Of a stretch of DNA of 64,000 bases, positions 22,357-38,985 are shown piece after piece. Each line of letters starts with the position of its first letter. Positions within the stretch are counted from its first letter, which is position 1. Position numbers and translations under genes: made by a program. The notes under the pieces were generated by a model. That model was not told the origin of the DNA. It did no database searches and saw only the letters and a program-made list of their open reading frames with translations. Source of the DNA: Devosia sp. 67-54 (lineage in GTDB: Bacteria; Pseudomonadota; Alphaproteobacteria; Rhizobiales; Devosiaceae). The stretch lies in contig NZ_MKVA01000005.1 in NCBI RefSeq assembly GCF_001899075.1, positions 248,001 to 312,000 on the forward strand, read 5' to 3'.

Positions 22357-24474
22357 GTGCCGATTCCGAACGACTATCTCGAGCGGGTCTATGCCGGCGT
22401 GCTCGGCAAGCTGATAGGGGTCTATCTCGGCCGGCCGTTCGAGGGCTGGACCTACCAGAAGATCATGCAGGAGCTCGGCCCCATCGAGTACTACGTGCAC
22501 GAGCGGCTGGGCCAGCCGCTGGTGGTCACCGACGACGACGTGGCGGGCACCTTCACCTTCGTGCGAGCGCTGGAGGATTACGGCATCTCGCCCGATCTCA
22601 GCGCCGAGGACATCGGCAAGGCCTGGCTCAATTACATCGTCGAGGAGCGCTCCATCCTGTGGTGGGGCGGCAACGGCAATTCGACCGAGCACACCGCCTG
22701 GCTGAACCTCAAGAAGGGCATCCCGGCACCGCAATCGGGGGCGATCGCGACCAATGGCGCGACGGTCGCCGAGCAGATCGGCGCGCAGATCTTCATCGAC
22801 GGCTGGGCGATGGTCGCGCCGGGGCAGCCGCAGCTCGCGGCCGAGCTTGCGCGCAAAGCGGGCAGCGTCAGCCATGACGGCGACTCCGTCCATGCGGCGA
22901 TGCTGTGGGCGGCGATGGAGGCCGAGGCGTTCGTGTCGAGCGATATCGAGCACCTGCTCGAGACCGGCCTGTCGGTCATTCCCGCGGACGGCCTGATCGC
23001 CCGGCTGATCGCCGATGTGCGCGCCTGGCGCCGGCAATATCCCGACTGGCGCGACACGCGCCAGCAGATCGAGAACCGGTACGGCTACGACAAATATCCG
23101 GGCAATTGCCACGTGGTGCCCAACCACGCGCTGATGATCATGGCGGTGCTCTATGCGCCCGACGATTTCCAGAAGGCGCAGATGATCGTCAACACCTCGG
23201 GCTGGGACACCGACTGCAATGCCGGCAATGTCGGCTGCTTGATCGGGCTGATGCAGGGGCTCGACGGGCTGGAAACGGGGCCGGACTGGCGCGGCCCGAT
23301 CGCCGACCGCCTGCTGATCTCGTCGGCCGACGGCGGCAGCTCGATCAACGATGCGGTGCGCACCGCCTATTACCTCACCAATATCGGCCTGCGCCTCTCC
23401 GGCGCCAGCGCGATGGCGCTGCCCAAGGAGGGGGCGCAGTTCCACTTCTCGCTGCCCGGCAGCGTGCAGGGGTTCACCGCGGCCGGCGGCGTCGGCGGCA
23501 ACCGCTCGGTGCGGACCGCCAATGTCGAGTTCGAAGGCGGCCGCGCGCTGGCGGTCGTCTACGAAGCGCTGGGGCCGGGGCAGATCGCAGCGGTGAGCAC
23601 GCCCACCTTCACGCCGCGCGACGTGCTCGACATGCGCACCTACGAGCTGATGGCGACGCCGCTCGTCTATCCCGGGCAGGTGGTGAAGGCGCGCGTCGTC
23701 GCCGACAGGGCGAACACCGGCGCCGTCGTCGTGCGGCTGCGGGCGCGCGTCTATGACGAGCACGACCAGCTGCGCGACGTCGATGGCGAGGGCCGGGTGC
23801 TGCAGCCGGGCGAGGCGGCGATCCTCGACTGGCGGCTGCCGGAGTTCGGCGGCCAGCCCATCGGCGAAATCGGCATCGCGTTTGCCGCCGACGGCCGCCG
23901 CGCCGATGGCCGGGTGCTGCTCGACTACCTCCGCTGGGACGGCGCGCCGCAGGTGACGTTGCGCCGGCCGGCCGGCGACAGCGATTTCTGGCGGCGCGCC
24001 TGGGTCAACGGCGTGAGCTTTTTCTCCAAGCGCTTCTCGCCCAGCTTCCGCATCTCGCAGGATCGCGGCGAGGGGCTCATCATCCACGGCACGCGGCAGT
24101 GGACCGACTATCGCGTCGACACCGAGATCGTCATCCACCTGGGCAGCTATGGCGGGGTTTCGGTGCGCGTGCAGGGCCTGCGGCGGCGCTACGACGTCCG
24201 CCTGACCCGGCAGGGCCGGCTCGAGATCGTGCGCGTGCGCGACGACGCTGTCGAGGTGCTCGCCGCGACGCCGTTCCCGCTGCAGTTCGAAACCCGGATC
24301 GGCTGCACCGTCTCGGTGACCGGCAGGGAGATCCGCGCCGAAATCGGGTCGGTCTCGCTCGCGGCGCGCGACGACAGCGAGCAGGCATTCGCCGACGGCG
24401 GCATCGGCCTCCTCATCGCCGAGGGCGCGCTGTCGACCGACGAGGTGCGCGTCGCCGGCCTCCCGCCGGGCTGA
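22357..24474 (+). CDS. ADP-ribosylglycohydrolase-family protein with C-terminal beta-rich extension
   Basis: 705-residue protein without signal peptide. The N-terminal approximately 350 residues match the ADP-ribosylglycohydrolase (DraG/ARH) fold: YAGVLGKLIGVYLGRPFEGW at the start, the acidic metal motif VVTDDDVAGTFT (D59-D61), VSHDGDSVHAAML, and late GWDTDCNAGNVGCLIGL, equivalent to the second metal site GGDTDTNA. The remainder is beta-rich and unlike DraG: a middle region and a last approximately 150 residues resembling a LamG/DUF1080-type jelly roll. DraG-family enzymes cleave N- or O-glycosidic bonds to ribose. Here the gene closes a sugar-importer operon, so a small imported N-riboside or glycoside is a more likely substrate than a modified protein. 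Confidence 0.8.
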   Translation: MPIPNDYLERVYAGVLGKLIGVYLGRPFEGWTYQKIMQELGPIEYYVHERLGQPLVVTDDDVAGTFTFVRALEDYGISPDLSAEDIGKAWLNYIVEERSILWWGGNGNSTEHTAWLNLKKGIPAPQSGAIATNGATVAEQIGAQIFIDGWAMVAPGQPQLAAELARKAGSVSHDGDSVHAAMLWAAMEAEAFVSSDIEHLLETGLSVIPADGLIARLIADVRAWRRQYPDWRDTRQQIENRYGYDKYPGNCHVVPNHALMIMAVLYAPDDFQKAQMIVNTSGWDTDCNAGNVGCLIGLMQGLDGLETGPDWRGPIADRLLISSADGGSSINDAVRTAYYLTNIGLRLSGASAMALPKEGAQFHFSLPGSVQGFTAAGGVGGNRSVRTANVEFEGGRALAVVYEALGPGQIAAVSTPTFTPRDVLDMRTYELMATPLVYPGQVVKARVVADRANTGAVVVRLRARVYDEHDQLRDVDGEGRVLQPGEAAILDWRLPEFGGQPIGEIGIAFAADGRRADGRVLLDYLRWDGAPQVTLRRPAGDSDFWRRAWVNGVSFFSKRFSPSFRISQDRGEGLIIHGTRQWTDYRVDTEIVIHLGSYGGVSVRVQGLRRRYDVRLTRQGRLEIVRVRDDAVEVLAATPFPLQFETRIGCTVSVTGREIRAEIGSVSLAARDDSEQAFADGGIGLLIAEGALSTDEVRVAGLPPG

Positions 24475-24670: not shown

Positions 24671-24694
24671 TGAAATGTCGATTTTACAAATGAT
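24671..24694 (+). promoter_or_regulatory. phn box 1, shared 24-bp element upstream of the phosphonate importer
   Basis: TGAAAT, two bases, CGATTTTACAAAT, one base, AT. The same element occurs on the other strand at 34534-34557 with 21 of 24 matches. This copy ends 77 bases before the importer's first ATG and points the same way as the gene. The core ATTT-TAC-AAAT is symmetric, as LysR-type sites often are. It sits in an AT-rich island within the 297-bp gap before the importer. Confidence 0.6.
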
Positions 24695-24771: not shown

Positions 24772-25899
24772 ATGAAATCAATTCGAACTGGAGTCTCGCG
24801 CCGCGACGTGCTGCGCGGAGGAACTGCACTTGGCGCATTGGCTGCGTTCGGGCTGCCGCAGCTGGCGGTGGGGTCGGCCAACGCCGCGACGATGGAGGAC
24901 TGGGCGCTGCCGCCGGACCTTGAAAAGGCCAAGGTCGAGGGGCTGGAATATGCGAGCTACGGCATGCCCGACACCTGGGCCAATTACGGCGAAGTGCTGC
25001 AGAAGCTCGGGGCCCAGCTGGGCATCCAGATCCATCACACCGACACCGACATGAGCTCGCTCGAGGAGGTGACCAAGTACGACGCCGAGAAGGACAATCC
25101 TGTCGCCATCACCTCCGACATCGGCATCCTGTTCGGGCCCGTGGCGGACGCCAAGGGCGTGGTGCCGCCCTACACGCCGCCGAACGCAGCGCGCCTGCCG
25201 GCCGGCCTCAAGGGGCCGAATGGCGGGTGGGTCGCAACCTTCACGGGCGTGCCGACCATCATCACCAATACCGACGTCGTCAAGAACCCGCCCAAGACCT
25301 GGGAAGATCTGCTGAAGCCCGAATATACCGGCAAGGTGCAGTCGATCGATCCCAGCGCGGGTGGCGCGACCGACGTCGCCTTCTTCCTCGCCTGGGCTTA
25401 CGCCTTCGGGGGTGACGAGAACAATTTCGACGGCGCCGTGGAGTACGCCAAGAAGCTGCTGGGCCAGTTCAGCGCGGTGTCGGCCAACGGCCAGACGCTG
25501 GAGAAGGGCGAGGTGCCCATCCAGCTGCAATGCGACTACAACGCCATCGCCGCCGCCAAGCGGCTCAAGGACAAGGGCATCAGCTCCGACGTGGTGGTGC
25601 CGGGCGTCTCCATCTATGCGCCCTATGCGATCATGGCCAACAAATATAACCTGGCCAAAATGAACATCGCCAAGCTCATGCTCGATTTCGTGCTGAGCGA
25701 CGAGGGACAGACGGCGTTCGCCCGCTTCGGCGCACACCCGATCCGCGTCGCGCTCGGCGATCTGACGCTGCCCGACGACGCCAAGGCGAACTGGCTGCCC
25801 GACAGCATGTACGCCCAGGTCAAGAACATCCCCGACTGGTCCAAGGTCAGCCTGCAGCGGATTGCCGAAGTCTGGCAGTCGCAAGTGGCCGGCGGCTGA
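24772..25899 (+). CDS. ABC transporter substrate-binding protein, family 1, probable phosphonate (AEP-type) importer
   Basis: 375-residue periplasmic protein with a Tat-type leader: SRRDVLRGGTALGALAAFGL, ending at VGSANAA. The mature part (LEYASYGMPDTWANYGEVLQ, VPTIITNTDVVKNPPKTWED, LLKPEYTGKVQSIDPSAGGA) belongs to the spermidine/Fe/thiamine/2-aminoethylphosphonate-type binding proteins. GGGAG lies about 9 bases before the ATG. It heads an operon of two permeases, an ATPase and a phosphonate monoester hydrolase, so a phosphonate such as 2-aminoethylphosphonate or its ester is the likely ligand. The ligand is inferred from neighbours. Confidence 0.85.
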   Translation: MKSIRTGVSRRDVLRGGTALGALAAFGLPQLAVGSANAATMEDWALPPDLEKAKVEGLEYASYGMPDTWANYGEVLQKLGAQLGIQIHHTDTDMSSLEEVTKYDAEKDNPVAITSDIGILFGPVADAKGVVPPYTPPNAARLPAGLKGPNGGWVATFTGVPTIITNTDVVKNPPKTWEDLLKPEYTGKVQSIDPSAGGATDVAFFLAWAYAFGGDENNFDGAVEYAKKLLGQFSAVSANGQTLEKGEVPIQLQCDYNAIAAAKRLKDKGISSDVVVPGVSIYAPYAIMANKYNLAKMNIAKLMLDFVLSDEGQTAFARFGAHPIRVALGDLTLPDDAKANWLPDSMYAQVKNIPDWSKVSLQRIAEVWQSQVAGG

Positions 25900-25902
25900 G
25901 GG

Positions 25903-26820
25903 ATGGCCGACCAGCTCAGCTTCGGCCTGGCCTCGACGCGAGGCCGAAGCAGCCATCTGCGCCGGTTCGCCAGCCGCCTGCTCGTGTGGCTGGCGGACTG
26001 GTCGATGGCGCTGCCGCTGCTGATCGTGTCGGCGCTGATGCTCGTCGCGCCGATGGTGGCGATGTTCGCCGGCAGCTTCATCGACGGCAACGGCCAGATG
26101 TCGCTGGTGAACTGGAGCGACACGCTCGGCTCGGTCGCGAGCCAGCGTGCCATCGGCAACAGCCTGCTGCTCGGCGTCACCGTGGCCACCATCACGCTGA
26201 TCATCGGCGGCCCGCTGTCGTGGCAGGTGTCGCGCATGCTGCGGCTCGGCCGCGCCTTCAGCCTCGGCCTGCTCAACGTGGCGGCCAATTTCAGCGGCAT
26301 CGGCCTCGGCTTCGCCTTCGTCGCCGCGCTCGGCACCTACGGCATGGTGACCCTTGCCATGCAGGCGCTCGGCCTGCCGTTCTCGCCGGTGTCGCAGAGC
26401 TCGTTCTGGGGCATGGTGATCGCCTATGAATACGGCAACATCCCGCTGTTCGTGCTGCTGTCGCTGCCGGCGATGAGCCTGCTGCGCGACGAGTGGTGGG
26501 AAGCGGCGCAGACGGCGTCGGCGACCCGCTGGCAGTTCTGGCGCCACATCGGGCTCCCCATCCTGATGCCGCTGATGCTGGCCGACTGGTTGCTGATCTT
26601 CACCTGGTCGGTGGGCATGTACGGCCTGCCGCTCGCCTTGGTCGGCAGCGCGCCGCGGGCCTTCCGGCTGATCACGGTGGAAATGGGCCAGTCGATGGTC
26701 GGCTCGCTGTTCGGCGTCAACCACGTGCCGGTCTATGCCGTGATCCTGATGGTCATCGCCACGATCACGCTGCTCGCCTACCGGCTGATCGTCAGGAGGG
26801 CGATGCAGTGGCTCGTGTAG
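25903..26820 (+). CDS. ABC transporter permease 1 of the phosphonate importer
   Basis: 305-residue membrane protein starting three bases after the binding-protein stop. About six helices are visible, from SMALPLLIVSALMLVAPMVA onward. The EAA-like loop is WWEAAQTASATRWQFWRHIG, followed by LPILMPLMLADWLLIFTWSV. It resembles the CysU/PotB-like permeases that accompany spermidine- and AEP-type binding proteins. It overlaps the next permease by 13 bases. Confidence 0.88.
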   Translation: MADQLSFGLASTRGRSSHLRRFASRLLVWLADWSMALPLLIVSALMLVAPMVAMFAGSFIDGNGQMSLVNWSDTLGSVASQRAIGNSLLLGVTVATITLIIGGPLSWQVSRMLRLGRAFSLGLLNVAANFSGIGLGFAFVAALGTYGMVTLAMQALGLPFSPVSQSSFWGMVIAYEYGNIPLFVLLSLPAMSLLRDEWWEAAQTASATRWQFWRHIGLPILMPLMLADWLLIFTWSVGMYGLPLALVGSAPRAFRLITVEMGQSMVGSLFGVNHVPVYAVILMVIATITLLAYRLIVRRAMQWLV

Positions 26821-27644
26821 CTCGGCTCGCGCAGCGTATCCCCATCGTGCTGATGGCGATCTTCATCATCCTGCCGATGGTGGCGGTGCTGCTCTATTCC
26901 TTCGCCACGCGCTGGACGAGCAACATCCTGCCCGACGGCTATACGTTCGAGCACTGGATCGACGGCTTCACCGATGCGCGGTTCGCGGCGGTGCTGGTGC
27001 GCACGCTGCTGCTCGCCATCGCCTGCGCGGTGCTCGACCTGATCCTGGTCACTCCCGCGGTGTACTGGCAGAAGGTACGCAATCCGCGCATCCGGCCGTT
27101 CCTCGAGCTGGCGGCGGCGATACCGTTCGCCATTCCGTTCGTGGTGATCGCCTTCGGCCTGCTGGCGCTCAGCGGCCGCTTCGCCCCGCAATTGCAGGGT
27201 ACGCTGTGGCTGCTGCTGCCGGCGCATGCGGCGGTGGCGTTCTCGTTCGTCTATTGGGCGGTCGACAGCTCGATGACCTCGGCAGGCGTCGCCCGCCTCA
27301 GCGAGGCGGCACGGACGTGCGGAGCCGGCCCGATGACCATTCTGTGGCGGGTGGTGCTGCCCAATATCGGCCCCGGCATCGCCAGCGGCGCGCTGCTGGC
27401 GTTCGGCGCGAGCTTCAACGAAATCGCCCTGGTGCAGATGCTGGTGGGCAACCGCTTCGAGACGGTGCCGCTCTACATGCTGAACCTGCTCAAGGGCTCC
27501 AACGCCGATTTCAACCTTCTGGCGGTGATGACCAGCGTGACCTTCCTCGTCACCCTGGTCCTGTCGATCGCGGTCGTCTACGTCAATGGCGGCGCCACGA
27601 CGCAACTGGCCAACACCAACCCAGGTCGAAGGGAAACGCAATGA
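26808..27644 (+). CDS. ABC transporter permease 2 of the phosphonate importer
   Basis: 278-residue partner permease (PotC/CysW-like). The GTG at 26808 is chosen because AGGAGGG lies 8 bases upstream, inside the end of permease 1. Helices begin IPIVLMAIFIILPMVAVLLY; the EAA loop reads LSEAARTCGAGPMTILWRVV followed by LPNIGPGIASGALLAFGASF. The stop overlaps the ATPase start (ATGA), so the subunits are translationally coupled. Confidence 0.88.
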   Translation: MARVARLAQRIPIVLMAIFIILPMVAVLLYSFATRWTSNILPDGYTFEHWIDGFTDARFAAVLVRTLLLAIACAVLDLILVTPAVYWQKVRNPRIRPFLELAAAIPFAIPFVVIAFGLLALSGRFAPQLQGTLWLLLPAHAAVAFSFVYWAVDSSMTSAGVARLSEAARTCGAGPMTILWRVVLPNIGPGIASGALLAFGASFNEIALVQMLVGNRFETVPLYMLNLLKGSNADFNLLAVMTSVTFLVTLVLSIAVVYVNGGATTQLANTNPGRRETQ

Positions 27645-28690
27645 GCAGCATCACGCTGCGCGGCGTCAGCCGCCACTATGGTCCGGTGGTCGCGCTGGAC
27701 GAAGTCAACCTCGAGGTGGAGGCGGGCGAGTTCATCGCCTTGCTCGGCAGCTCCGGCTGCGGCAAGACCACGACGCTGCGCTGCATCGCCGGGCTCACGC
27801 AGCCCTCGGCCGGCCGCATCTTCTTCGGCGACCAGGACGTCACCGACGTGCCGACCCGGCTGCGGCCCATCGGCATGGTGTTCCAGAGCTACGCGCTGTT
27901 TCCCAACATGACGGTGCGGCAGAACATCGCCTTTCCGCTCGCGGTGCGCGGCCGGCGCGGCAGCGAAGTGGAGCGGCGGGTCGACGAATTGCTGGAGCTG
28001 GTCGACCTGGTCGAGTTCGCCGGCCAGCATCCCAACCAGCTCTCGGGCGGGCAGGCGCAGCGCACGGCGCTGGCGCGGGCGCTGGCGCCGTCGCCGGCGG
28101 TGCTGCTGCTCGACGAGCCGCTTTCCGCCCTCGACGCCGTGGTGCGCCTGCATCTGCGCGACGAGATCCGGCGCATCCAGCAGCAGGTGAAGATCACCGC
28201 CTTGCTGGTGACGCACGACCAGTCGGAGGCGCTGGCGGTCGCCGACCGCGTGGTGGTGATGAGCAAGGGGCGGATCGAGCAGGTGGCAACGCCGGCCGAG
28301 CTCTACGAAACGCCCGCGACGCTGTTCAGCGCGAGCTTCATCGGCAACCGCAACGCCATCGAGCTGCCGGTGGTGGACGGGCGGATCCGCCTGGGCGGCG
28401 CCTTCGACCTGCCGAGCGGCGTCAAGGCCGATACGGCGCTGGTGTTCGTGCGCGCCGAGGACGTGCGGCTGGCCGGCGAGGGGAGGGGACACCCGGCGCG
28501 CGTCGAAAGCCGCATCTTCCAGGGGTCGACGACGCGCTTCTACCTGTCGGTCGATGCCGGCTTCGGCCCCATCCGGCTGCGGGCCGACTGGCCGAGCCGC
28601 GATGCGGCGTCGGTGCAGACCGGCGACACCGTCCGGCTCTACGTCGATCCGGCCGACGCCCGCGTCTTTGCACCCGAGGCGCGCCCATGA
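27641..28690 (+). CDS. ABC transporter ATPase of the phosphonate importer (PotA/FbpC-like)
   Basis: 349-residue ATPase. Walker A LLGSSGCGKTTT (about 35-46), Q-loop MVFQSYALFPNMTV, signature LSGGQAQRTALARAL, Walker B VLLLDEPLSALD and H-loop LLVTHDQSEAL are all intact. The C-terminal approximately 110 residues form a TOBE-type domain (PSGVKADTALVFVRAEDVRL, then a second strand set). It is coupled on both sides by ATGA overlaps, to the permease before and the hydrolase after. It is the only PotA/MalK-type ATPase in the window. Confidence 0.92.
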   Translation: MSSITLRGVSRHYGPVVALDEVNLEVEAGEFIALLGSSGCGKTTTLRCIAGLTQPSAGRIFFGDQDVTDVPTRLRPIGMVFQSYALFPNMTVRQNIAFPLAVRGRRGSEVERRVDELLELVDLVEFAGQHPNQLSGGQAQRTALARALAPSPAVLLLDEPLSALDAVVRLHLRDEIRRIQQQVKITALLVTHDQSEALAVADRVVVMSKGRIEQVATPAELYETPATLFSASFIGNRNAIELPVVDGRIRLGGAFDLPSGVKADTALVFVRAEDVRLAGEGRGHPARVESRIFQGSTTRFYLSVDAGFGPIRLRADWPSRDAASVQTGDTVRLYVDPADARVFAPEARP

Positions 28691-30210
28691 CGACGCCGGG
28701 CCTCAACGTTCTCCTCATCACCGCGGATCAGTGGCGCGGCGACCTCCTGGGCGCCGCCGGGCATCCGTTCGCCAGCACGCCGCATCTCGATGCGCTCGCC
28801 GCGGATGGCACCCGGTTCGCGCGCCACTACTGCCAGGCCTACCCCTGCGGTCCGGCACGCGCGTCGATGCTGACCGGCCTTTATCCGCACAAGCACCGCA
28901 GCATCCAGAACGGCGTTCCCCTGGATGCGCGCCATCCCACGCTGTTCAAGGAGGCGCGGCGCGGGGGCTACCGGCCGCGGCTGTTCGGCTATTCCGACAC
29001 CACCCTCGATCCGCGCGGCCGGCCGGAGCTCGACCCCGATCGCGGCGACTACGAAAATGTGTGCCCCGGCCTCGATGTCGACACGCTGCTGACCGAGCGC
29101 GCCGTCTCCTGGCTCGCCGACCTCCTGGCCAAGGGCTACGACGTCGACCCGGATGGCGGGCGGGATGCGGTGTTTGCGGCGCGCGGTCCGGGCGAGCCGC
29201 CGCTGTTTTCCGCCGAGGACAGCGAGGCTGCGTTCCTCACCGACCGTTTCCTGCTGTGGCTTGCGGCCGCCGGGTCGCGCCCGTGGTTCGCGCATCTCTC
29301 CTACATTTCCCCGCATCCGCCGTTCGCGGCCGCACCGCCCTATGACACGCTCGTCGATGTCGGCCAGGTGCCGCTGCCGAAGCGGGGCGCGGCGCCCGAG
29401 ACCGAGGCCGCGCAGCATCCCTTCATCGCCGCGCTCTACGACCAGATGGATGCCGGCCATTTCGTCCCCGGCCTCAACGGGCGCTCGCGGGACGTGAGCG
29501 ACGACATGATCCGGCGGATACGCGCGATCTATGCCGGCCAGGCGGCGGAGGTCGACCATCACATCGGCCGCATCGTCGCGGCGCTGACGGCGAGCGGTGC
29601 CCTCGAGCGGACGCTGGTGATCTTCACCTCCGACCACGCCGAGCAGCTGTTCGACCACTGGATGCTGGGCAAGGCCGGGTATTTCGACCAGTCCGCGCAC
29701 GTTCCGCTCATCATCCGCCATCCGGGCGCGCTGGCGCGGGCGCATCGCGGCCGGACCGTGCAGCAGTTCACCGAATCGATCGACCTGATGCCGACGATCC
29801 TCACGGCCATCGGCGTCACGCCGCCGCGCAATTGCGACGGCCACAGCCTGTTGCCGTACTGCTTCGGGGAGGCGCCGGCCGGCTGGCGCGACGAGGTGCA
29901 TTGGAGCACCGATTTCCGGGACATCGAAACGCGCCGCATGGAGCAGCAGTTCGGGTTGCCGTCGGAGTGGTGCAATTTGCAGGTGATCAGGACCGAGCGC
30001 TTGAAATACGTGCACTTCGCAGGCCTGCCGCCGGTCCTGTTCGACCTCGAGGACGATCCGGACGAGCTGGTCAACCGGGCCGACGATCCCGCCGCCCGTC
30101 CCCTGAAGCTCGAGGCGCTCGACCGGCTGCTGACCTGGCGGCAGCGCAACGAGGAGCGGACGCTTACGGGCTATCTCGCCCGCGCCGGACGCTATTTCGA
30201 AGAGACGTAA
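28687..30210 (+). CDS. Phosphonate monoester hydrolase / sulfatase-type, formylglycine dependent
   Basis: 507-residue cytoplasmic enzyme of the alkaline-phosphatase superfamily. The N-terminus NVLLITADQWRGDLLG has the first metal Asp; C54-G-P-A-R58 matches the CxPxR motif in which Cys becomes formylglycine, the nucleophile. FTSDHAEQLFDH and LGKAGYFDQSAHVPLIIRHP complete the metal site. Length and motifs match the rhizobial/Burkholderia phosphonate monoester hydrolases (about 510 residues) better than typical secreted sulfatases. It is ATGA-coupled to the importer ATPase and next to PhnA/PhnY genes, so I infer that it releases phosphonate from imported phosphonate monoesters. It needs a formylglycine-generating enzyme from elsewhere. 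Confidence 0.82.
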   Translation: MTTPGLNVLLITADQWRGDLLGAAGHPFASTPHLDALAADGTRFARHYCQAYPCGPARASMLTGLYPHKHRSIQNGVPLDARHPTLFKEARRGGYRPRLFGYSDTTLDPRGRPELDPDRGDYENVCPGLDVDTLLTERAVSWLADLLAKGYDVDPDGGRDAVFAARGPGEPPLFSAEDSEAAFLTDRFLLWLAAAGSRPWFAHLSYISPHPPFAAAPPYDTLVDVGQVPLPKRGAAPETEAAQHPFIAALYDQMDAGHFVPGLNGRSRDVSDDMIRRIRAIYAGQAAEVDHHIGRIVAALTASGALERTLVIFTSDHAEQLFDHWMLGKAGYFDQSAHVPLIIRHPGALARAHRGRTVQQFTESIDLMPTILTAIGVTPPRNCDGHSLLPYCFGEAPAGWRDEVHWSTDFRDIETRRMEQQFGLPSEWCNLQVIRTERLKYVHFAGLPPVLFDLEDDPDELVNRADDPAARPLKLEALDRLLTWRQRNEERTLTGYLARAGRYFEET

Positions 30211-30272
30211 GCGGTCCCGGACTCCGGCTCGGCGGCCGCCCCGCATTGCTCGCGGCTCGCGGCCGCGGGCGA

Positions 30273-31652
30273 TCAGGCCATGCCGGTTTCAGCCAGGATC
30301 GCGTCTTCGACGATGCCCAGGGCGCGGTCGAGGTCCTGCCGCGAAATCACCAGCGGCGCCGACAGGGTCAGCACGTTGCCGCCGCTCACCTTGAAGTTCA
30401 GCCCGTTCTCGAGGCAGCGATAATAGATGCGTTCGGCGCGGTCGCGCGCCTGGGCGCGGGTGGCGCGATCCTCGACGATCTCGACGCCCAGCAGCAGGCC
30501 GCGCCCGCGCACGTCGCCGACATGGGGCGAGCGCGTCGTCAGCTCGCGCAGCCGCGCCATCGCCGCCGCTCCGAGCTCGGACGCGCGCTCCACCAGGCCG
30601 TCCTCGCGGATGATCTCGATGGTGGTCAGGGCGGCGCGCGTCGTCACCGGATTCTTTTCGTGCGTATAGTGGCCGATCGCGAAATCGCCGGCGACATCGA
30701 GGTCGTGGCGGGCGATCATCGCCGCGATCGGCAGGATGCCGCCGCCGAGCGCCTTGCCGAGCACCATGATGTCGGGCACGACGCCCTCGTGCTCGGAGGC
30801 GAAGAAGCGGCCGGTCTTGCCCAGCCCGGTCGGGATCTCGTCGAAGATCAGCAGCGCGCCGTGCCGGTCGCAGGCCTCGCGCACGCGCCGCCAATAGCCG
30901 GGCGGCGGCAGATAGGGGATGGCCCGCATCGGCTCGGCGATCACCGCGGCGACGTCGCCCTCCTTCTCGAGCACGTACGACACCATGTCGGCGCAGGCGA
31001 GGCCGCAGCTCTCCGGGCCGGCGTGCTTGAACGGGCAGCGATAGCAGGCGAACGGCGCGACGTGCTCGGTGCCGGTCATCAGCGGGCCGGCGATGTGCGA
31101 GCGAAAGGTCGCCTCGCCGCCCACGCTCGCGGCCGCGAAGCCGGCGCCGTGGAAGGCATCCCAGAACGACACCGTCTTGAAGCGGCCGGTGGCGGCCCGG
31201 GCGAGCTTGATGGCGACTTCGATCGCGTCGGAACCGCCGGTGGTGAACAGCACCTTGTCCAGATTGCCGGGGGCGAGCTTGCCCAATGTCTCGGCGAGCT
31301 CCACCGCGGGCTCGCAGGTGAAGCGGCGCGGCGCGAACGACAGCGTGTCGAGCTGCTGCTTGATGGCGGCGACGAGCCGGGGGTGGGCGTAGCCGATGTG
31401 GTGGGCGCTGTTGCCGTGAAAATCCATGTAGCGGCGGCCCGCCGTGTCCTCGATCCAGATGCCCTCCGCCTTGGCGATGGTGGAGACGCAGGGGCTCGAC
31501 AGGCTCTGGTGCAGGAAGGCGTCGGCGTCGCGTTCGAGCAGCGCGCGGGTGGCGTTGTGCTGTTCGCGCCGCGCAAACGACTGCCGTGCGGCCGAGGTGT
31601 TGGACTCCCCCTCGGCGTGGACGATGCCGGTGTCGCGTTCGCCTACACGCAT
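30273..31652 (-). CDS. Class III PLP enzyme of phosphonate catabolism (PbfA-like lyase or AEP transaminase)
   Basis: 459-residue fold-type I PLP protein, class III. Visible motifs are LHQSLSSPCVSTIAKAEGIW, DFHGNSAHHIGYAHPRLV, VLFTTGGSDAIEVAIKLARA, LLIFDEIPTGLGKTGRFF with the ring-nitrogen Asp, and VLGKALGGGILPI with the Schiff-base Lys. This subgroup resembles PbfA, (R)-1-hydroxy-2-aminoethylphosphonate ammonia-lyase, as I recall it. The classical AEP transaminase PhnW is class V and is absent here. Either activity would give phosphonoacetaldehyde for PhnY, encoded 60 bases upstream. The start at 31652 is preferred; a GTG at 31685 would add 11 residues. Confidence 0.75.
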   Translation of the reverse strand: MRVGERDTGIVHAEGESNTSAARQSFARREQHNATRALLERDADAFLHQSLSSPCVSTIAKAEGIWIEDTAGRRYMDFHGNSAHHIGYAHPRLVAAIKQQLDTLSFAPRRFTCEPAVELAETLGKLAPGNLDKVLFTTGGSDAIEVAIKLARAATGRFKTVSFWDAFHGAGFAAASVGGEATFRSHIAGPLMTGTEHVAPFACYRCPFKHAGPESCGLACADMVSYVLEKEGDVAAVIAEPMRAIPYLPPPGYWRRVREACDRHGALLIFDEIPTGLGKTGRFFASEHEGVVPDIMVLGKALGGGILPIAAMIARHDLDVAGDFAIGHYTHEKNPVTTRAALTTIEIIREDGLVERASELGAAAMARLRELTTRSPHVGDVRGRGLLLGVEIVEDRATRAQARDRAERIYYRCLENGLNFKVSGGNVLTLSAPLVISRQDLDRALGIVEDAILAETGMA

Positions 31653-31712
31653 GTGCAATCTCGGGGTTCGAGGCACGCGGCACACGGGCTCCGCGCGCCG
31701 GTACGCCGGGCG

Positions 31713-33170
31713 CTAGGCCCAGGGCAGGGAAAAAGTCTTGACATTGGTATAGCTCTTCATGGCCTCGACGACGCCTTCCTTGAAGCCGTTGCCGGAATCT
31801 TTGATGCCGCCGAAGGGAGACATCTCGGTGCGATAGCCGGGAACCTCCCAGATGTTCACCGTGCCGACGCGGAGGCCGGCGACGTATTTCTGGATGCGGC
31901 GGAAATCGTTGGTGCAAACGCCAGAGGACAGCCCGAACGGCGTGGAGTTGGAGAGCGCAATCAGCGCCGCGTCGTCATCGGGCACGCGCACGATCGGCAC
32001 GATCGGACCGAACGTCTCCTGCATCACGAGATCGCTCGCATGCGGCACGCGGTCGACCACGATCGGCGGCAGCAGCGCGCCCGTCCGTCCCGGATGGTAG
32101 AGAATCTCGGCGCCCTGTTCGGCGGCCATCTCGACCCGGCGTTCGAACAGCGCCGCCGCCTTCTGGTTGACCACCGTTCCAAGCTGCGTGTCGGGCAGCA
32201 GCGGATCGCCGAAGCGGATCGCCTGGGCGCGCTCCAGCACCAGCGGCACGAAGCGGTCGGCGACGCGCTCCTGGCAGAGGATGCGCTTGACGGCGGTGCA
32301 GCGCTGCCCGGAATTCCGCGTCGCGCCGGCGACCGCGAGATCGGCCGCCCGCGCCAGGTCGGCATCGTCGAGGTCGTCGAGCACGATCAGCGGATCGTTG
32401 CCGCCCAGCTCGAGCACCTGGCGGCGGTAGCCGGCGGTCGCCGCGATCATCTTGCCCACCGGCACGCTGCCGGTGAAGGTGACGAGCTCGACATTGGGGT
32501 TGGTGATCATCTCGGCGCCGATGTCGGCCGGCCAGCCGGTGACCACCGAGAGCATCTGCGGCGGCAGGCCGGCCTCGTAGAGGATGTCCGCCAGCAGCAG
32601 CGCGGTGATGGGCGTCGCCTCGGCCGGCTTGACCACGACGCAATTGTTGGTGGCGATCGCCGGGGCCACCTTGTGCGCCACCATGTTGAGCGGATGGTTG
32701 AACGGCGTGATGGCCGAGATCGCGGTCAGCGGCTCGCGCAGCGTGAAGATCTTGCGCGCCCGCCCATGCGGGGTGAGGTCGCAGGCATAGACCTCGCCGT
32801 CGTCGTGGATCAGCGCCTGCCCGGCGAGGGTGAAGACGTCGAAGGCGCGCCCGACCTCGTACAGCGAATCCTGCCGGGAGATGCCGAGCTCGAGGCTGAT
32901 GCAGGTAGAGAGCTCGTCCCGCCGCGCGTCGAGCATTTCGGCGGTCCGCAGCAGGATGCGCTGCCGCTCGTAGCGGGTGAGCGTCGCGCGGAAGCCCGCC
33001 GCCGCGGCAAAGGCGTCGCGGGCGTGCCGCGCGCTGCCCGCCGGCACCGTTCCCACCAGATGGTCGTCATAGGGGTGGCGGATTTCGATCACCGCATCGG
33101 CGTCGACCGAACGGCCGGCGATCCGCATGGGATGGTGACGGGCAGGGAAGTGGCGGGCCGGCTCGGACAT
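31713..33170 (-). CDS. phnY: Phosphonoacetaldehyde dehydrogenase
   Basis: 485-residue NAD-dependent aldehyde dehydrogenase that oxidises phosphonoacetaldehyde to phosphonoacetate. The catalytic Cys is C291 in [11 protein letters not shown]; the general base lies in LELGGNDP and the NAD fold in [11 protein letters not shown]. Residues R108, H159 (PFNHP), R290 and R447 (PGYRTEM) fall at the positions I recall for phosphonate binding in Sinorhizobium meliloti PhnY, which makes this more than a generic ALDH. The ATG at 33170 has CGAGGGA just upstream, 10 bases after the PhnA stop; an earlier ATG would overlap PhnA. It sits in the middle of the leftward phn unit. Confidence 0.9.
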
Positions 33171-33180
33171 CGGTCCCTCG

Positions 33181-34437
33181 CTACCTGGCGACGCGGGTGG
33201 CGGCCACGGCGTAGTAGAACGCATCGAAATTGCGCAGCACCGGCGCGTCGGGCAGGTCGGGAAGCCGCCGGTTGACGATGAAGGGCACGCGCTGCTCGGT
33301 CAGCCCGCCATGCGAGCGCAGCGGTTCCTTGAGCGCCGCGAGATCGTGCCGCGCCGCGCTGGTGCCGATCGTCTTGTTCTCGCTCGAGATCAGCACCAGA
33401 TCGCCCATGCGGTCCTCGGGCAGCTCGAAGCGGGCGCAGGCCTGCTGGCGGTCGAGCACCAGGTCGAGCCCCGCGACCCCGCGCAGGCGTTCGATCAGCG
33501 CCGCCCGGTCGACCGAGTCCGGCAGGTACGCGGTGGCGAAGGATCCGAGCGCCCCGTGGTGGACGACATAGGGGTCGGTGATCGGCAGGATCACGCGCGC
33601 GGCGCCGGCGCCGAGCCACGTGTCCAGCAGGTCCTGCAGGTAGATCACGTCCGGCGTCCCGTCGGCCTTGTGCTTGGGCTTCATGCCGTGGTCGGCGGTC
33701 ACCACCACCGCGGCGCCGAGCGCGTCCAGCTCGCCCAGATAGTGGTCGAACATGGCGTAGAAGGCGTTGGCCTGCGCGGTACCGGGGGCGAATTTGTGCT
33801 GCACGTAGTCGGTGGTGGTCAGGTACATGATGTCCGGCCGGAACTCGCGGAGCAGCTTCACTCCGGCGGCGAACACGAACTCGGACAGCTCCGCCGAATA
33901 GACCTCGGGAACGGGGCGATCCAGCCAGGCCGAGGCGTTGTCGATGCCGTTGCCGGCAAGCGTGGTGGCGCCGGCGCGTTCGGCCGAAAAGCACACCGCG
34001 CGATCGGGGAAGGCGAGGCCGTGGCCGAGCAGCGCCCTGAGCTTGTCCTTGGCGGTCACCACCGCGACGCGGGCGCCGGCGTCGAAGAACCCCTTGAACA
34101 GCGTCGGCGCGCGCAGGAATCTCGGATCGTTCATCATCACCTCTTCGCCGGTGGCCGGATCGTAGAGGTAGTTGCCGCAGATGCCGTGCACGGCCGGGGG
34201 GCGACCGGTGGCGATCGACAGATTGTTGGGGTTGGTGAAGCTCGGCATGGCGCTATGGGCAAAGCGGACCGTGCCGCGCTGCTTGATGTCCACCAGGTTG
34301 GGCATGAGCCCGGCGGCGATGGCGGTGTCGAGATAGGCCGGCTCGCAGCCGTCGAGGCAGATGGCGATGGCGGGCACGTCCGGCCAGTCATAGCTCCGGC
34401 CGTTGATGGTGATGGCGTTCCGTCCCAGCTCGCTCAT
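33181..34437 (-). CDS. phnA: Phosphonoacetate hydrolase
   Basis: 418-residue zinc enzyme of the alkaline-phosphatase superfamily that splits phosphonoacetate into acetate and phosphate. Metal and nucleophile residues fall at the expected places: D29 (CLDGCEP), T68 nucleophile (PSFTNPNN), the [11 protein letters not shown] segment, [11 protein letters not shown] and [12 protein letters not shown]. Length and numbering match Sinorhizobium PhnA. It is the first gene of the leftward unit, followed by phnY 10 bases on. Its promoter region holds phn box 2 and is shared with the divergent LysR gene. Confidence 0.93.
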
Positions 34438-34533
34438 GCGTCGCTCCCAGTGAGTCCGAGCCGTTCGGCGTGCCGCTGCCAGGCGAGGCGAGCGGCCAGA
34501 ACTCCATTTTCAAGCGACGGTGGCAGCCGTCCC

Positions 34534-34557
34534 ATTATTTGTAAAATCGTTATTTCA
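34534..34557 (-). promoter_or_regulatory. phn box 2, shared 24-bp element upstream of phnA
   Basis: On the minus strand it reads TGAAAT, two bases, CGATTTTACAAAT, one base, AT, like box 1 at 24671-24694. It ends 96 bases before the phnA start and faces it. It lies in an AT-rich stretch between phnA and the LysR gene, the classic place for a LysR-type activator site. Confidence 0.6.
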
Positions 34558-34674
34558 TATTTTGTGATTGGAAAATCCGATAGTTGGTCGGCTAGATCGC
34601 TGCCGCCGATCGGGCCGGAAAGAGCGCCGGTTTCCGCCGACCGGCATCGTCTGCGTCGCTCGTCGGAGATCACA

Positions 34675-35607
34675 TTGCGCTACGTTCAGCTCAGGGCCTT
34701 CCACCATGTCGCCGTCTGCGGCGGCTTCTCGCGCGCCGCCGAGGCGCTGCACCTGACGCAGCCGGCCATCTCCGACCAGGTGCGCAAGCTCGAGGAGGAG
34801 TACGACGTGCTCCTGTTCAACCGGCTCAAGAAGCAGGTGACGCTGACGCAGGCCGGGCAGAACCTGTTCGAAGTCACCAAGCGCATGTTCGACGTCGAGC
34901 AGCAGGCGCTCGGCCTGCTGTCGGAATCGCGCAGCATGCGGCTGGGCACGCTGCGGATCGTGGCCGACGCCCCGCACCATCTGCTGCGCATCCTCGCGCG
35001 CTACCGCAGCAAATATCCGGGCGTGCGCATCCTGCTGCATTCGGGCAATTCGGAGACGGTGGTCGAGAGCCTCTATGCCTACGAGGCCGACATCGGCGTG
35101 CTCGGGGATTTCCCGAGCGGCCGCGACTTCCTCACGGTGAAACTCCATTCCACGCCGATCATCGCCTTCGCCGCCGCGGACCACCCGATCGCGAAGAAAG
35201 GCAGGACGACGCTCAAGGAGCTCGCCAGCCAGCCGCTGGTGATGCGCGAGCGCGGCTCGATGACGCGGCAGCGGCTCGAGGAGACGGCGCGCGCGCAGGG
35301 CGTCGAGCTGAAGCCGATCATCGAGGCGGAAGGGCGCGAGGCGGTGCGCGAGATCGTGGCCTCGGGCGGCGGCATCGGCTTCGTCTGCGCCGCCGAGTTC
35401 AGCCCCGACAACCGCGTGGTGGCGATCCCGATCGACGGGGCGAGCATGCTGATGGACGAAGGGCTGATCTGCCTGCGCGAACGCGGCGGCAACCAGCTGG
35501 TCCGCGCCTTCTTCGAAACGGCGCTCGAAAGCCGCGACTCCGAAGAGACCGCCGTCAAACCCGCATCCCGAAAGCCCCATGCGAGGAGCAGGAGCGCGCG
35601 GGCCTAG
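34675..35607 (+). CDS. LysR-family transcriptional regulator of the phosphonate genes
   Basis: 310-residue regulator. The winged HTH is at the N-terminus (FHHVAVCGGFSRAAEALHLT, QPAISDQVRKLEEEYDVLLF), then the effector domain (LGTLRIVADAPHHLLRILAR, AFAAADHPIAKKG, IVASGGGIGFVCAAEFSPDN). The start is a TTG at 34675 with GGAG about 7 bases upstream; no in-frame ATG lies at the family's usual start. It is divergent from phnA with the phn box between them, so it is the probable activator. The C-terminal 20 residues are basic and unusual. Its stop shares the palindrome CCTAGG with the stop of the opposing deaminase remnant. Confidence 0.88.
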   Translation: MRYVQLRAFHHVAVCGGFSRAAEALHLTQPAISDQVRKLEEEYDVLLFNRLKKQVTLTQAGQNLFEVTKRMFDVEQQALGLLSESRSMRLGTLRIVADAPHHLLRILARYRSKYPGVRILLHSGNSETVVESLYAYEADIGVLGDFPSGRDFLTVKLHSTPIIAFAAADHPIAKKGRTTLKELASQPLVMRERGSMTRQRLEETARAQGVELKPIIEAEGREAVREIVASGGGIGFVCAAEFSPDNRVVAIPIDGASMLMDEGLICLRERGGNQLVRAFFETALESRDSEETAVKPASRKPHARSRSARA

Positions 35608-35909: not shown

Positions 35910-36743
35910 CTAGCCCTTTATGCCCGCCGACGACAGGCCCTGCACATAGTAGCGCTGCAGCGGCAGCAGCAGCACGATGGGGATCAGCGCGGTGACCACC
36001 GCCACGGCGAAGAGCTGGTTCCAGAAGGTCTGGTATTGCTGCTGGAAGGCGGCCATCCCGACCTGGATCACCTTGAACTGCTGGCTCGGCATCGCCAGCA
36101 GCGGCCACAGGAAGGCCTCCCACTGGAACACGAACAGCAGCAGCCCGGCGCTGATGCAGGTGGGGATCGAGAGCGGCACATAGATCCGCCACAGGATGTC
36201 GAACCAGGTGGCGCCGTCGATCTGGGCCGCCTCGAGATAGTCGGACGGCACCTGCCGGAAGAACTGGTAGAACAGGAACACCGCAAGGCCGTTGGCGACG
36301 CTGGGCACGATCAGGGCGGCGATGTTGTCGACCCAGCCCAGTTGCAGCGTCACCGAATAGAGCGGCAGCGCGATGGCCTCGAATGGCAGCATGAAGCTGA
36401 CGATGACGAAGGCGAGCACCAGGCCTTTGCCCTTGAAGTCGAACAGCGCGAAGGCAAAGCCGGCGGCGCCGTTGACGACGATCCCGGCGATCACCGTCAC
36501 CACGGCGACCAGCAGGGTATTGGCGATGATGAGGCCAAAACCCTGGTCGAGGATGCCGCTATAGGCCTCGAGCGAGAAGGGCACGGGGATCAGCGCCTTG
36601 GGAGTGAAGGGGAAAAGGTCGGCGAAGACTTCGCTGTTCGGCCGCAGCGACGACACGATCGCCCACCACAGCGGCAGCACGAACACGAAGGCGATGGCGA
36701 TGTAGGCGAGGTGCCTGAGGCCGAGGGCAGCGCCGCGCTTCAT
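35910..36743 (-). CDS. ABC transporter permease, MalG type (nucleoside operon)
   Basis: 277-residue membrane subunit. It begins MKRGAALGLRHLAYIAIAFV; the EAA loop is LEAAQIDGATWFDILWRIYV, and the end QRYYVQGLSSAGIKG is a MalG-type tail. The ATG overlaps the preceding permease stop (ATGA). It belongs to the leftward operon with a nucleoside hydrolase and a binding protein. Confidence 0.92.
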   Translation of the reverse strand: MKRGAALGLRHLAYIAIAFVFVLPLWWAIVSSLRPNSEVFADLFPFTPKALIPVPFSLEAYSGILDQGFGLIIANTLLVAVVTVIAGIVVNGAAGFAFALFDFKGKGLVLAFVIVSFMLPFEAIALPLYSVTLQLGWVDNIAALIVPSVANGLAVFLFYQFFRQVPSDYLEAAQIDGATWFDILWRIYVPLSIPTCISAGLLLFVFQWEAFLWPLLAMPSQQFKVIQVGMAAFQQQYQTFWNQLFAVAVVTALIPIVLLLPLQRYYVQGLSSAGIKG

Positions 36744-37612
36744 GATGCTGCCTCCGTGCGGCGGGAGAGCAGCCGGAACTGCAGGCCGACGATCAGCAGC
36801 AACAGCAGCACCAGCACCACGATGATCGCCATCGCCCGTCCCATGTCGCCGAAGATGAAGCCGGATTTGTAGGCCTCGTACATCAGCACGTTGGTGGAAT
36901 CCGCCGGGCCGCCCTGGGTCAGCATGAAGATGGGGGCAAACAGCAGGAAATTGATGGACACGTCGGCCACCAGCACGAACAGCAGCGTCGGCCGCAGCAG
37001 TGGAACCGTGATATAGACCAGCCGCTGCCAGGCGCGGGCGCCGTCGATCCGCGCCGCGTCGTAGATTTCGGGCGAAATGTTCTGCAGGCCGCCGACGATG
37101 AAGATCATCCAGTACGAGATGCCCTTCCAGGTGGCGATGGCGATGATCGAATAGAGCGCCAGGCCTTCGGAGGTCAGCCAAGGTTGCGCCGGCAGCCCGG
37201 CGACATTGAGCAGGCCGTTCACCAGCCCGTCCGGCGTCAGCATGATGCGCCAGATGATCACCGCGGTCGGCAGCGACACGCCGATCGGAATGAGAAACAG
37301 CACCCGGTAGAGGGTGATGCCGCGGAACTTCTGCACGTAGAGCAGCGCCAGCCCGAGCGCCAGCGCGATCTGGATGGGGTTCATCAGCAGGTTGAACCAC
37401 AGCGTCACCTGCAGCGATTTCCAGAACGTCGTATCGGCGGCGAGCGCCAGATAATTGCCGATCCCGACGAAGATCGTGTCGCCCCTGACGACGTTGAACA
37501 GGCTGTCGGAGACGGCGAGCGCGATCGGATAGAGCCGGAACACCACCAGGCCGAGCAGCGCCGGCGCAAGGCACAGCACGGCGAAGAAGACGGGGGTTCG
37601 GCGTGTCGTCAT
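36740..37612 (-). CDS. ABC transporter permease, MalF/UgpA type (nucleoside operon)
   Basis: 290-residue membrane subunit. It starts MTTRRTPVFFAVLCLAPALL, with SDSLFNVVRGDTIFVGIGNY as the first periplasmic loop and the EAA loop YDAARIDGARAWQRLVYITV. It is separated from the binding-protein gene by a 50-base gap holding a GC stem-loop, and coupled to the MalG-type permease by an ATGA overlap. Confidence 0.92.
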   Translation of the reverse strand: MTTRRTPVFFAVLCLAPALLGLVVFRLYPIALAVSDSLFNVVRGDTIFVGIGNYLALAADTTFWKSLQVTLWFNLLMNPIQIALALGLALLYVQKFRGITLYRVLFLIPIGVSLPTAVIIWRIMLTPDGLVNGLLNVAGLPAQPWLTSEGLALYSIIAIATWKGISYWMIFIVGGLQNISPEIYDAARIDGARAWQRLVYITVPLLRPTLLFVLVADVSINFLLFAPIFMLTQGGPADSTNVLMYEAYKSGFIFGDMGRAMAIIVVLVLLLLLIVGLQFRLLSRRTEAAS

Positions 37613-37631
37613 GCAAGGCTCCGGGGGCGGA

Positions 37632-37655
37632 GCCCTCCCGCCGAAGCGGGAGGGC
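37632..37655 (-). promoter_or_regulatory. Intercistronic stem-loop after the binding-protein gene
   Basis: Perfect 10-bp arms GCCCTCCCGC and GCGGGAGGGC flank a four-base loop (CGAA on the plus strand, TTCG on the transcript strand, a very stable UUCG tetraloop). It lies seven bases after the binding-protein stop, as in the other importers here. There is no T-run. Confidence 0.55.
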
Positions 37656-37662
37656 GATGGGC

Positions 37663-38985
37663 CTATTGGGCGACGCGCTTGGCGGCGGCCTCGAATTTCT
37701 GCACCGCGCTCTTGAGGGCATCGGCAACGGGCACGCCGTTGGAGATGTCGGTGAAGGCGGTGCGGAAGGCATCCTGCAACTGGCCATAGGCTGCCGTCAC
37801 CGGCCGCGCCTTGGCGGTATTGAGCGAGTCATAGACGCCCAGGCGGAACACGTCCTGCGGGAAGGTGTCGAAGGCGGGCGAGGTGCTGATCTCGTCGAGC
37901 AGCGGCTTGTACACGGGCAACTGGTTCAGCGCCTTGAACCAGACGCGCGTGCCCTCGTCCGAGGTGGTGAGATATTTGGCGAAGTCGAACGCGTCCTGCT
38001 GGTCGGCGGAGGCGGCGTTGACGCCGACATACCAGCTGCCGGTCGGGGTCAGCACCTTGCCGCCCGCGAAATAGGGGTAGGGCGCAACGCCGTAATCGAC
38101 GCTGGTGGCGCTGAGGATCGGCAGGTTCCAGGTGCCGCCGACGAACATCGCAAGCTTGCCGGTGGTGAACAGCTGCGCCGCCTCGCCATAGCCCAGCCCC
38201 TTCGGGCTCACGCCCCACTCGTTGTAGAGGTTGGACCAGTAGGTGGCGGCCTTCGTCCAGGCGGGGCTGTCGAGATAGCCCTCGGCGGTGACGCCGTCGG
38301 GCGCGATCACGTCGGTGCCCAGCGATTCACCGAAGGGCTGCAACTGGTAGAGCTCGGCGAACTGCTCGACGCTGAAGCCGTATTGCGTGGTGCGGCCATT
38401 GTCCTTCACCGTCAGCTTCCTGGCCGCATCAGCGATCTGCTCCCAGGTCCAGCGCTTGCTCGAGGCCAGCTCGTCGACCTGCTTCTGGCTCGCCGACTGC
38501 CCGGCCGTCAGCCCGTCCGGCGGCGTGATGCCGGCGGCCTTGAACAGCGCCTTGTTGTAGAACAGCACCTGCGCGGAATTGTTGATCGGCAGGGCGTATT
38601 GCGTGCCGTCATACTTGCCGGCATCGACGCTGGCCTGCACCAGGGTGGAGGTGTCGATCCCCTGGTCGATCTTGGACAGGAAGCCGCGCGACGCATAGCT
38701 CGCCACCAGCGGCGCATCGACATAGACGAGGTCGATGCCCTTGTCCTTGGAGCGCAGCCGCAGCTCGGCCACCTGGAAGAACTGGGCGAACGGATAGGAT
38801 TGCAGCTTGATCTTGATGCCGGGATGGGCCGCCTCGTAGCTGTCGGCCACCGCCTGCATCGCGGTGGTGTCGCCACCTTCGATCACGATCATGTTGAGCG
38901 TCTTGTCCGCCGCCAGTGCGGAGGTGGCGAGCAGGCCGGCAGCAAGGCCGGCCATTGCCGCAGTCTTCCAGATCATCTTCATCAT
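37663..38985 (-). CDS. ABC transporter substrate-binding protein, family 1 (nucleoside operon)
   Basis: 440-residue periplasmic protein. The signal peptide is MMKMIWKTAAMAGLAAGLLA, ending ATSALAA. The mature region TLNMIVIEGGDTTAMQAVAD and the segment GIDLVYVDAPLVASYASRGF are family 1. Two adjacent ATGs (38985 and 38982) overlap the nucleoside hydrolase stop; AAGGGG lies four to seven bases upstream. Because it is coupled to a nucleoside hydrolase and a former adenosine deaminase, a nucleoside or riboside ligand is inferred, although family 1 proteins usually bind sugars. Confidence 0.88.
   Translation of the reverse strand: MMKMIWKTAAMAGLAAGLLATSALAADKTLNMIVIEGGDTTAMQAVADSYEAAHPGIKIKLQSYPFAQFFQVAELRLRSKDKGIDLVYVDAPLVASYASRGFLSKIDQGIDTSTLVQASVDAGKYDGTQYALPINNSAQVLFYNKALFKAAGITPPDGLTAGQSASQKQVDELASSKRWTWEQIADAARKLTVKDNGRTTQYGFSVEQFAELYQLQPFGESLGTDVIAPDGVTAEGYLDSPAWTKAATYWSNLYNEWGVSPKGLGYGEAAQLFTTGKLAMFVGGTWNLPILSATSVDYGVAPYPYFAGGKVLTPTGSWYVGVNAASADQQDAFDFAKYLTTSDEGTRVWFKALNQLPVYKPLLDEISTSPAFDTFPQDVFRLGVYDSLNTAKARPVTAAYGQLQDAFRTAFTDISNGVPVADALKSAVQKFEAAAKRVAQ

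Follow-up and report, generated by a model that had tools for sequence, protein, structure and literature searches.

A 64,000-nucleotide stretch of contig NZ_MKVA01000005.1 of Devosia sp. 67-54 (the window) carries at 24772-35607 an island of two convergent units and a LysR gene, which we propose may serve the use of esters of R-1-hydroxy-2-aminoethylphosphonate (R-HAEP). At a probability of about 0.55, an R-HAEP monoester would be imported, cut by a phosphonate monoester hydrolase (PMH) and mineralized by PbfA, PhnY and PhnA, with both units co-regulated. A reading made from the DNA letters without database searches (the sequence-only reading) had listed an importer, a CxPxR-type hydrolase, a class III pyridoxal phosphate (PLP) enzyme, PhnY, PhnA and a LysR gene in two convergent units, and all of these genes were confirmed at their positions. 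It had also held that an imported phosphonate monoester is split inside the cell and mineralized. That outline is supported by the importer, the intracellular PMH-type hydrolase and PhnY-PhnA as identified by their signatures, by the recurrence of such hydrolases beside genes for cleavage of the carbon-phosphorus (C-P) bond and by a shared 13-mer, although the ester of 2-aminoethylphosphonate (AEP) that it favored has given way to an R-HAEP ester as the better guess.

In the proposed pathway an ATP-binding cassette (ABC) importer would bring the phosphonate monoester into the cytoplasm. The PMH, coupled in translation to the ATPase through an ATGA overlap and presumably activated by the formylglycine-generating enzyme of the cell, would remove the alcohol and release R-HAEP, as its active-site residues and the identity of the next enzyme suggest. 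From their family membership PbfA is expected to convert R-HAEP to phosphonoacetaldehyde with elimination of ammonia, PhnY to convert this to phosphonoacetate and PhnA to yield acetate and phosphate. The LysR-type regulator would act on both units through the shared 13-bp site.

PbfA and the predicted intermediate

The minus-strand unit contains PhnA, phosphonoacetate hydrolase (33181..34437; TIGR02335, 534.8 bits, cut-off 407.55), PhnY, phosphonoacetaldehyde dehydrogenase (31713..33170; TIGR03250, 784.2 bits, cut-off 635.65) and the class III PLP enzyme PbfA (30273..31685, with a true start possibly at 31652; NF049939, 683.4 bits, cut-off 525). As PhnY, PhnA and PbfA all passed their NCBIfam cut-offs, these matches are far beyond chance. 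With the PhnY start set at M19 of the longest frame and the residues numbered from there, R108, H159, R290, C291 and R447 were all present, as were D29 and T68 of PhnA, so that every residue named in the sequence-only reading was located.

The PLP enzyme was likewise present, but its identity displaced the AEP-ester interpretation: it is PbfA, a predicted R-HAEP ammonia-lyase, and the genome yielded no PhnW. A class III transaminase acting on AEP was considered for this gene and was ruled out by the NF049939 score. Genome-wide (4.21 Mb, 99.93% complete), PbfA exceeded its cut-off once, while none was exceeded for PhnW (best 36.6 bits against 400.8), PhnX (40.5 against 220) or the TIGR03364 oxidase (82.5 against 285.1), and neither PhnJ of the C-P lyase nor PhyH gave any match. 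PhnY*, an oxygenase that forms R-HAEP out of AEP, is a PhyH member. By these profiles the genome has no recognised AEP route, and the combination of PbfA with the lack of PhnW, PhnX and TIGR03364 oxidase over cut-off and of any PhnJ or PhyH match makes R-HAEP, not AEP, the predicted intermediate. Of 18 other fetched loci that combine PbfA, PhnY and PhnA, 17 contained PhnW; the sequence of the 18th (L196) begins 240 bp ahead of its PhnA match, with the upstream genes beyond view. The island would thus predict a nutrient class, R-HAEP esters, and its PhnW-less pathway should use R-HAEP rather than AEP.

The passages of PMC8154272 cited here describe PbfA as converting R-HAEP to phosphonoacetaldehyde and ammonia, as without activity on S-HAEP, ethanolamine or isoserine, and as encoded in phnW-phnX or phnW-phnA-phnY clusters. 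They also name sources of HAEP, namely Acanthamoeba polysaccharides, from which it was isolated, and Bdellovibrio stolpii membrane lipids, in which it was reported. The abstract of that paper gives AEP as the commonest biogenic phosphonate, which lends some weight to the original suggestion of an AEP ester, in a version where the ester is taken up and cleaved and AEP is turned into phosphonoacetaldehyde by a transaminase that has escaped recognition; eight other genomes in which a PMH adjoins PhnW, a plausible AEP-ester set, point the same way. We consider this improbable for the island, given the lack of PhnW and of TIGR03364 oxidase over cut-off in its own genome and the very narrow substrate specificity reported for PbfA in the text cited above.

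Among 20 genomes of the same family in our sample there was no PMH at 1e-80 and no PhnA or PbfA over cut-off, which suggests acquisition of the island from outside. Its GC content is ordinary.

The hydrolase, its importer and a shared 13-mer

The plus-strand unit ends with the hydrolase gene (28687..30210), which we assign to the Asp-type (D-type) PMHs by its active-site signature and for which activity on phosphonate monoesters is predicted. The formylglycine motif CxPxR occurs as C54-G-P-A-R58, with C54 the nucleophile, and D14, Q15, N75, H210, D316, H317 and K329 supply metal-binding and other catalytic residues. Compared over what we take to be the 11 catalytic positions of the Rhizobium leguminosarum PMH (RlPMH, gene in L015), ten were identical and Asp104 replaced Thr107. 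The two marker positions of PMHs are occupied by Tyr (Y102, at the LysA position) and Asp (D104, at the HisA position). According to the part of PMC5488252 cited here, it is at these two positions that PMHs differ from related arylsulfatases, PMHs having Tyr plus either Asp or Thr, and the Asp type is the majority. The best match in the PDB was 4uph (450 bits), with RlPMH 2vqr at 383 and 2w8s at 380 bits. The NCBIfam PehA equivalog scored 500.6 bits, under its cut-off of 900, a cut-off also unmet by the PhnX-linked PMH of L104 (437 bits).

By eye no signal peptide was visible in the hydrolase and the fold begins directly at the N-terminus, so that the enzyme should act inside the cell and the ester would have to be imported. 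The genome has a gene for a formylglycine-generating enzyme (231.5 bits). It also encodes two further D-type PMH paralogues in tandem (G000:C12:12341-16290, L048), with a HAD-type hydrolase gene between them and Opp-type peptide ABC genes adjoining. In a tree of 75 PMHs the window enzyme, four importer-linked and three unlinked PMHs formed one eight-row clade (100/100).

Burkholderia caryophylli PG2982 has been linked to glyphosate. The characterization of the PMH of this strain (Dotson 1996, as cited in part of PMC5649143) is the point in favor of a detoxification or xenobiotic role, in which the hydrolase would remove esters of man-made phosphonates. With PbfA reported to need R-HAEP and no match to the C-P lyase protein PhnJ in the genome, we consider this very improbable and the least credible of the alternatives.

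Upstream of the hydrolase lie the four importer genes. The binding protein (24772..25899) belongs to PF13343 and has a signal of the twin-arginine translocation (Tat) type, and proteins 56-62% identical to it occur in six rhizobial loci; it is followed by a first permease (25903..26820, PF00528), a second permease (about 26808..27644, with a probable GTG start at 26808 overlapping the first) and a PhnT2-like ATPase (27641..28690; 373 bits, below the cut-off of 457.7). ATGA overlaps join the second permease to the ATPase (27641-27644) and the ATPase to the hydrolase (28687-28690). The best-matching families for the importer are of the PhnSTUV/PhnT2 type, but all subunits scored under the cut-offs of the phosphonate-transporter families that they matched, the binding protein far under those of the PhnS/PhnS2 profiles (74.2 against 310, 55.9 against 395.3 and 44.8 against 392.75 bits). 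A polyamine, thiamine or iron importer was considered and rejected on the low scores of the binding protein for these families and on the close homologues which adjoin PhnX in six loci, an argument from context only in which the ligand is predicted. Structure prediction of the binding protein from an alignment of three gave a mean predicted local distance difference test (pLDDT) score of 35, too low for a usable model. In the proposed pathway the cargo of the importer would be the ester.

The sequence-only reading knew of no described pathway in which such a hydrolase is coupled by ATGA to its own importer. The arrangement of hydrolase and importer is not unique: the PMH gene directly follows the ATPase gene in three other rhizobial loci. 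Two of these (L004, L006) came from a hydrolase scan of the genome collection, which returned six loci, and the third (L013) from a plasmid search, which also returned a locus with the importer in fragments (L012). L006 and L013 share one gene order, namely LysR, TIGR03364 oxidase, PhnX, binding protein, two permeases, ATPase and PMH. The fragmentary LysR and importer genes of L012:10257-13479, on a plasmid of Aureimonas sp. AU20, accompany a full-length PMH which adjoins glpD/glpK and a glycerol-type ABC operon. The PMH of Aliiroseovarius crassostreae (L016) stands next to an importer with a binding protein closest to polyamine families, under their cut-offs.

Meiothermus taiwanensis and a plasmid record of Pseudomonas aeruginosa (L203, L204) encode binding proteins 37% identical to that of the island, and the operons concerned also encode a phosphodiesterase-type PF01663 protein some 260 residues long. 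The motif HxDTDMxSxxE was invariant in all nine proteins aligned. Importers of this type may therefore be paired with intracellular esterases of the alkaline-phosphatase superfamily more widely than in the island. A profile of these binding proteins also matched 4r6y, a solved putative AEP-binding protein, and 6wce, the pyridoxal-phosphate-binding P5PA.

The regulator gene (34675..35607, plus strand) belongs to the phosphonate subfamily of LysR-type regulators (TIGR03339, phn_lysR; 349.3 bits, cut-off 341.1); its probable start is the TTG at 34675, and the longest frame is translated from 34651. The candidate operator ATTTGTAAAATCG lies at 34537..34549 on the plus strand, in the intergenic region between PhnA and LysR, and again at 24679..24691 on the minus strand, about 80 bp before the importer start. 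These two exact copies, one ahead of each unit, are the only ones in the 4.21-Mb genome, which has one further site at one mismatch. When pairs of sequences with the dinucleotide make-up of both intergenic regions were simulated, a shared word of at least 13 occurred in 11 of 2000. The shared site suggests co-regulation of both units, with the regulator as the predicted ligand of the 13-mer.

PMH genes beside C-P hydrolysis genes in other genomes

The survey sample comprised 397 genomes, with a PMH at 1e-80 in 83, PhnA over cut-off in 84 and PbfA over cut-off in 47. For PMH neighborhoods we took 59 of the 85 matches in other genomes, one per genome and best scores first, some of which end at contig ends; the remaining 26 were judged by distance to PhnA only, from contig coordinates, and the nearest was at 31 kb (G256). 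PbfA loci were covered in 35 of the 46 other genomes, and the PhnA loci left out were 15 new ones (one below cut-off) and that of G248.

C-P hydrolysis genes were found in 14 of the 59 neighborhoods, all of which come from other genomes of the order. The PMH accompanied TIGR03364 oxidase-PhnX in six loci (L049, L050, L069, L085, L103, L104), PhnW-PhnX in another six (L095, L096, L097, L100, L102, L106) and PhnW-PhnA-PhnY with an EamA-type carrier in two (L064, L101). It was the next gene or nearly so, and in nine of the 12 PhnX loci it followed PhnX on the same strand; L049 and L050 had a convergent arrangement, and L100 had its PMH upstream of PhnW-PhnX. In L069, L103 and L104 there is a four-base overlap between the frames of PhnX and PMH. 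PhnX exceeded its cut-off in all five linked loci that were profile-tested (L095, L104, L049, L100, L069), PhnW did so in L095, L100, L101 and L064, and the oxidase in L104 and L069. All 14 linked PMHs were D-type and agreed with the window enzyme in all 11 residues.

The 14 loci are not independent events, as several share a genus (five are from g74). In the tree the linked PMHs occupied several branches: one eight-row branch consisted entirely of linked loci (L095, L096, L097, L100, L102, L103, L104, L106), L069 grouped with L085 and L049 with L050, and L064 and L101 fell elsewhere, in branches different from each other. The tree may be compatible with a single origin of the link. Even if each of the 59 genomes had one PhnX, about 0.24 would be expected within 10 kb of a PMH by random placement in a 5-Mb genome. 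PMH-PhnA pairs within 10 kb numbered 2 in 19 other genomes, where 0.10 were expected (P 0.005, from hand-copied counts, assuming random gene positions and post hoc). In the reverse direction the link was rare for the PhnA route: among 53 PhnY + PhnA loci besides the window, a PMH-like match was present in L064 and L101, which had been chosen for their PMH, and in L183, and the importer of the island was present in none. The L183 match (31%, beside PhnW-PhnA-PhnY) was rejected as a more distant sulfatase, which formed a deep separate branch with L070_PMH1, and was not counted.

Several observations weigh against an imported R-HAEP ester. In four loci (L199-L202) LysR, oxidase, PhnX and the same importer occur but no PMH was seen in the fetched stretch, so that the importer need not be an ester importer and may also carry free aminophosphonates; the genome of L199 (G085) has a PMH elsewhere. 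PMHs cleave phosphodiesters as well as phosphonate monoesters (PMC5488252, in the part cited), so the substrate could be another ester. These two points favor the main rival, in which free aminophosphonates such as R-HAEP and its relatives enter by the importer and the PMH serves as an accessory for some side substrate, for example a phosphodiester taken up by the same importer. We judge it unlikely, though the strongest of the alternatives: the PMH directly follows the importer in the window, L004, L006 and L013, and it adjoins PhnX or PhnA-PhnY in the 14 other genomes, which do not have this importer.

Against the R-HAEP ester also stand the pairing of importer-PMH with PbfA, found only in the window; the three PMHs of the window clade (L003, L005, L007) that lie away from the importer and from phn genes; and the chance that an unrecognised AEP transaminase may be encoded elsewhere in the genome. 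The 13-mer was not found within two mismatches in the 600 bp upstream of any of 75 other PhnA genes (10 had it within three), so that its link to the LysR-type regulator is putative; what speaks for the site is its uniqueness in the genome and the simulation. Finally, 45 of the 59 PMH neighborhoods had none of the tested C-P genes. This last count, together with the convergent and separate layout of the two units, would fit neighbors with no common task, the importer and PMH taking a phosphodiester or another ester for phosphorus and PbfA-PhnY-PhnA serving R-HAEP from a different importer. Such independence seems very improbable to us in view of a 13-mer unique to both promoter regions, of the same importer adjoining PhnX in six other loci and of the 14 linked neighborhoods.

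If an R-HAEP ester is indeed the substrate, the island could be a complete, self-contained system for such esters, for example amoebal phosphonoglycan fragments or phosphonolipids of the Bdellovibrio stolpii type. More widely, D-type PMHs would be the intracellular first step in the use of aminophosphonate esters, attached to PbfA-PhnY-PhnA, PhnW-PhnA-PhnY, PhnW-PhnX and oxidase-PhnX alike. We put this forward tentatively, at rather less than even odds. PMHs have been studied as promiscuous enzymes, and their repeated linkage to phosphonate genes makes a natural role testable.

Directly upstream of the island, at 22357-24474, the window encodes a 705-residue ADP-ribosylglycohydrolase-like protein, with an ABC permease gene adjoining, and after the LysR gene (35910-39024, minus strand) a further ABC importer with permeases and an SBP_bac_1-type binding protein. 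The window has one tRNA gene, tRNA-Met at 44446-44521.

Comparison with known systems

The order LysR, PhnA, PhnY, PbfA is shared with the known clusters of PbfA with phnW-phnA-phnY (Zangelmi et al. 2021, PMC8154272; PbfF paper, PMC12366243; both cited for parts of their text). The nearest relatives (L188, L189, L191) have LysR, a Na/Pi carrier, PhnW, PhnA, PhnY and PbfA, and the LysR, PhnA, PhnY and PbfA proteins of L188 are 68-78% identical to those of the island. L188 and L191 have in addition genes of standard AEP transport, with PhnT2 passing its cut-off in L188 and PhnS doing so in L191. Both also have a D-2-hydroxyacid-dehydrogenase-like gene, shown for L188 to match PF02826; PbfF is of this family according to the text cited from PMC12366243. 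The island differs from L188 and L191 in having no PhnW, PbfF-like dehydrogenase, Na/Pi carrier or standard AEP importer; it carries the importer-PMH module in their place.

PhnSTUV and AepXVW share the ABC layout of the island importer, and the AepX and AepS binding proteins are, like that of the island, PF13343 members (PMC8316502, in part); they are set apart by the low PhnS and PhnS2 scores of the island protein. The same importer as in the island occurs in TIGR03364 (PbfD1-type) oxidase-PhnX clusters of Rhizobium, Ciceribacter, Pararhizobium and G085, where L006 and L013 have a PMH behind the ATPase, as in the island, and none was seen in four of the six loci. In these clusters PhnX cleaves the C-P bond and the oxidase removes the amine, whereas the island has PbfA. 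TIGR03364 includes the characterized PbfD1, which oxidizes N-methyl-AEP and, less well, AEP (PMC10590968, in the part cited).

The hydrolase shares with RlPMH and BcPMH the CxPxR nucleophile, the Tyr and Asp/Thr marker positions and the metal ligands. It differs from RlPMH in Asp instead of Thr at position 107, and from the known PMHs in its grouping with importer-linked enzymes and its score under the PehA cut-off. Sugar- and peptide-type ABC genes surround the RlPMH gene, unlike that of the island.

In the sections cited from Sosa et al. (2017, PMC5649143) a PMH-like enzyme is proposed to act on marine phosphonate esters. The idea that PMHs free phosphonates from their esters before C-P cleavage is thus shared, but there it rests on genome co-occurrence, including all genomes with C-P lyase, and those sections give no operon or hydrolytic route such as that of the island. 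In the text cited from PMC4744853, which cites RlPMH, action of a nucleotidase on phosphonates is mere speculation. The words sulfatase, monoester and alkaline phosphatase are absent from the main text of the PbfA, PbfB-D and PbfF papers, and in open-licence PMC literature, at the level of titles, abstracts and partial texts, we found no PMH gene tied to a hydrolytic phosphonate operon.

Further parallels to the island are the PhnX-PMH operons of 12 other genomes of the same order, in which a D-type PMH likewise adjoins a C-P hydrolysis route. This link (12 of 59 neighborhoods) is far more frequent than the pairing of importer and PMH seen in the window. In these operons PhnW-PhnX or oxidase-PhnX takes the place of PbfA-PhnY-PhnA, and the importer of the island is lacking. 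All enzyme families of the island are known; what is new is the combination of genes and the PhnW-less R-HAEP layout.

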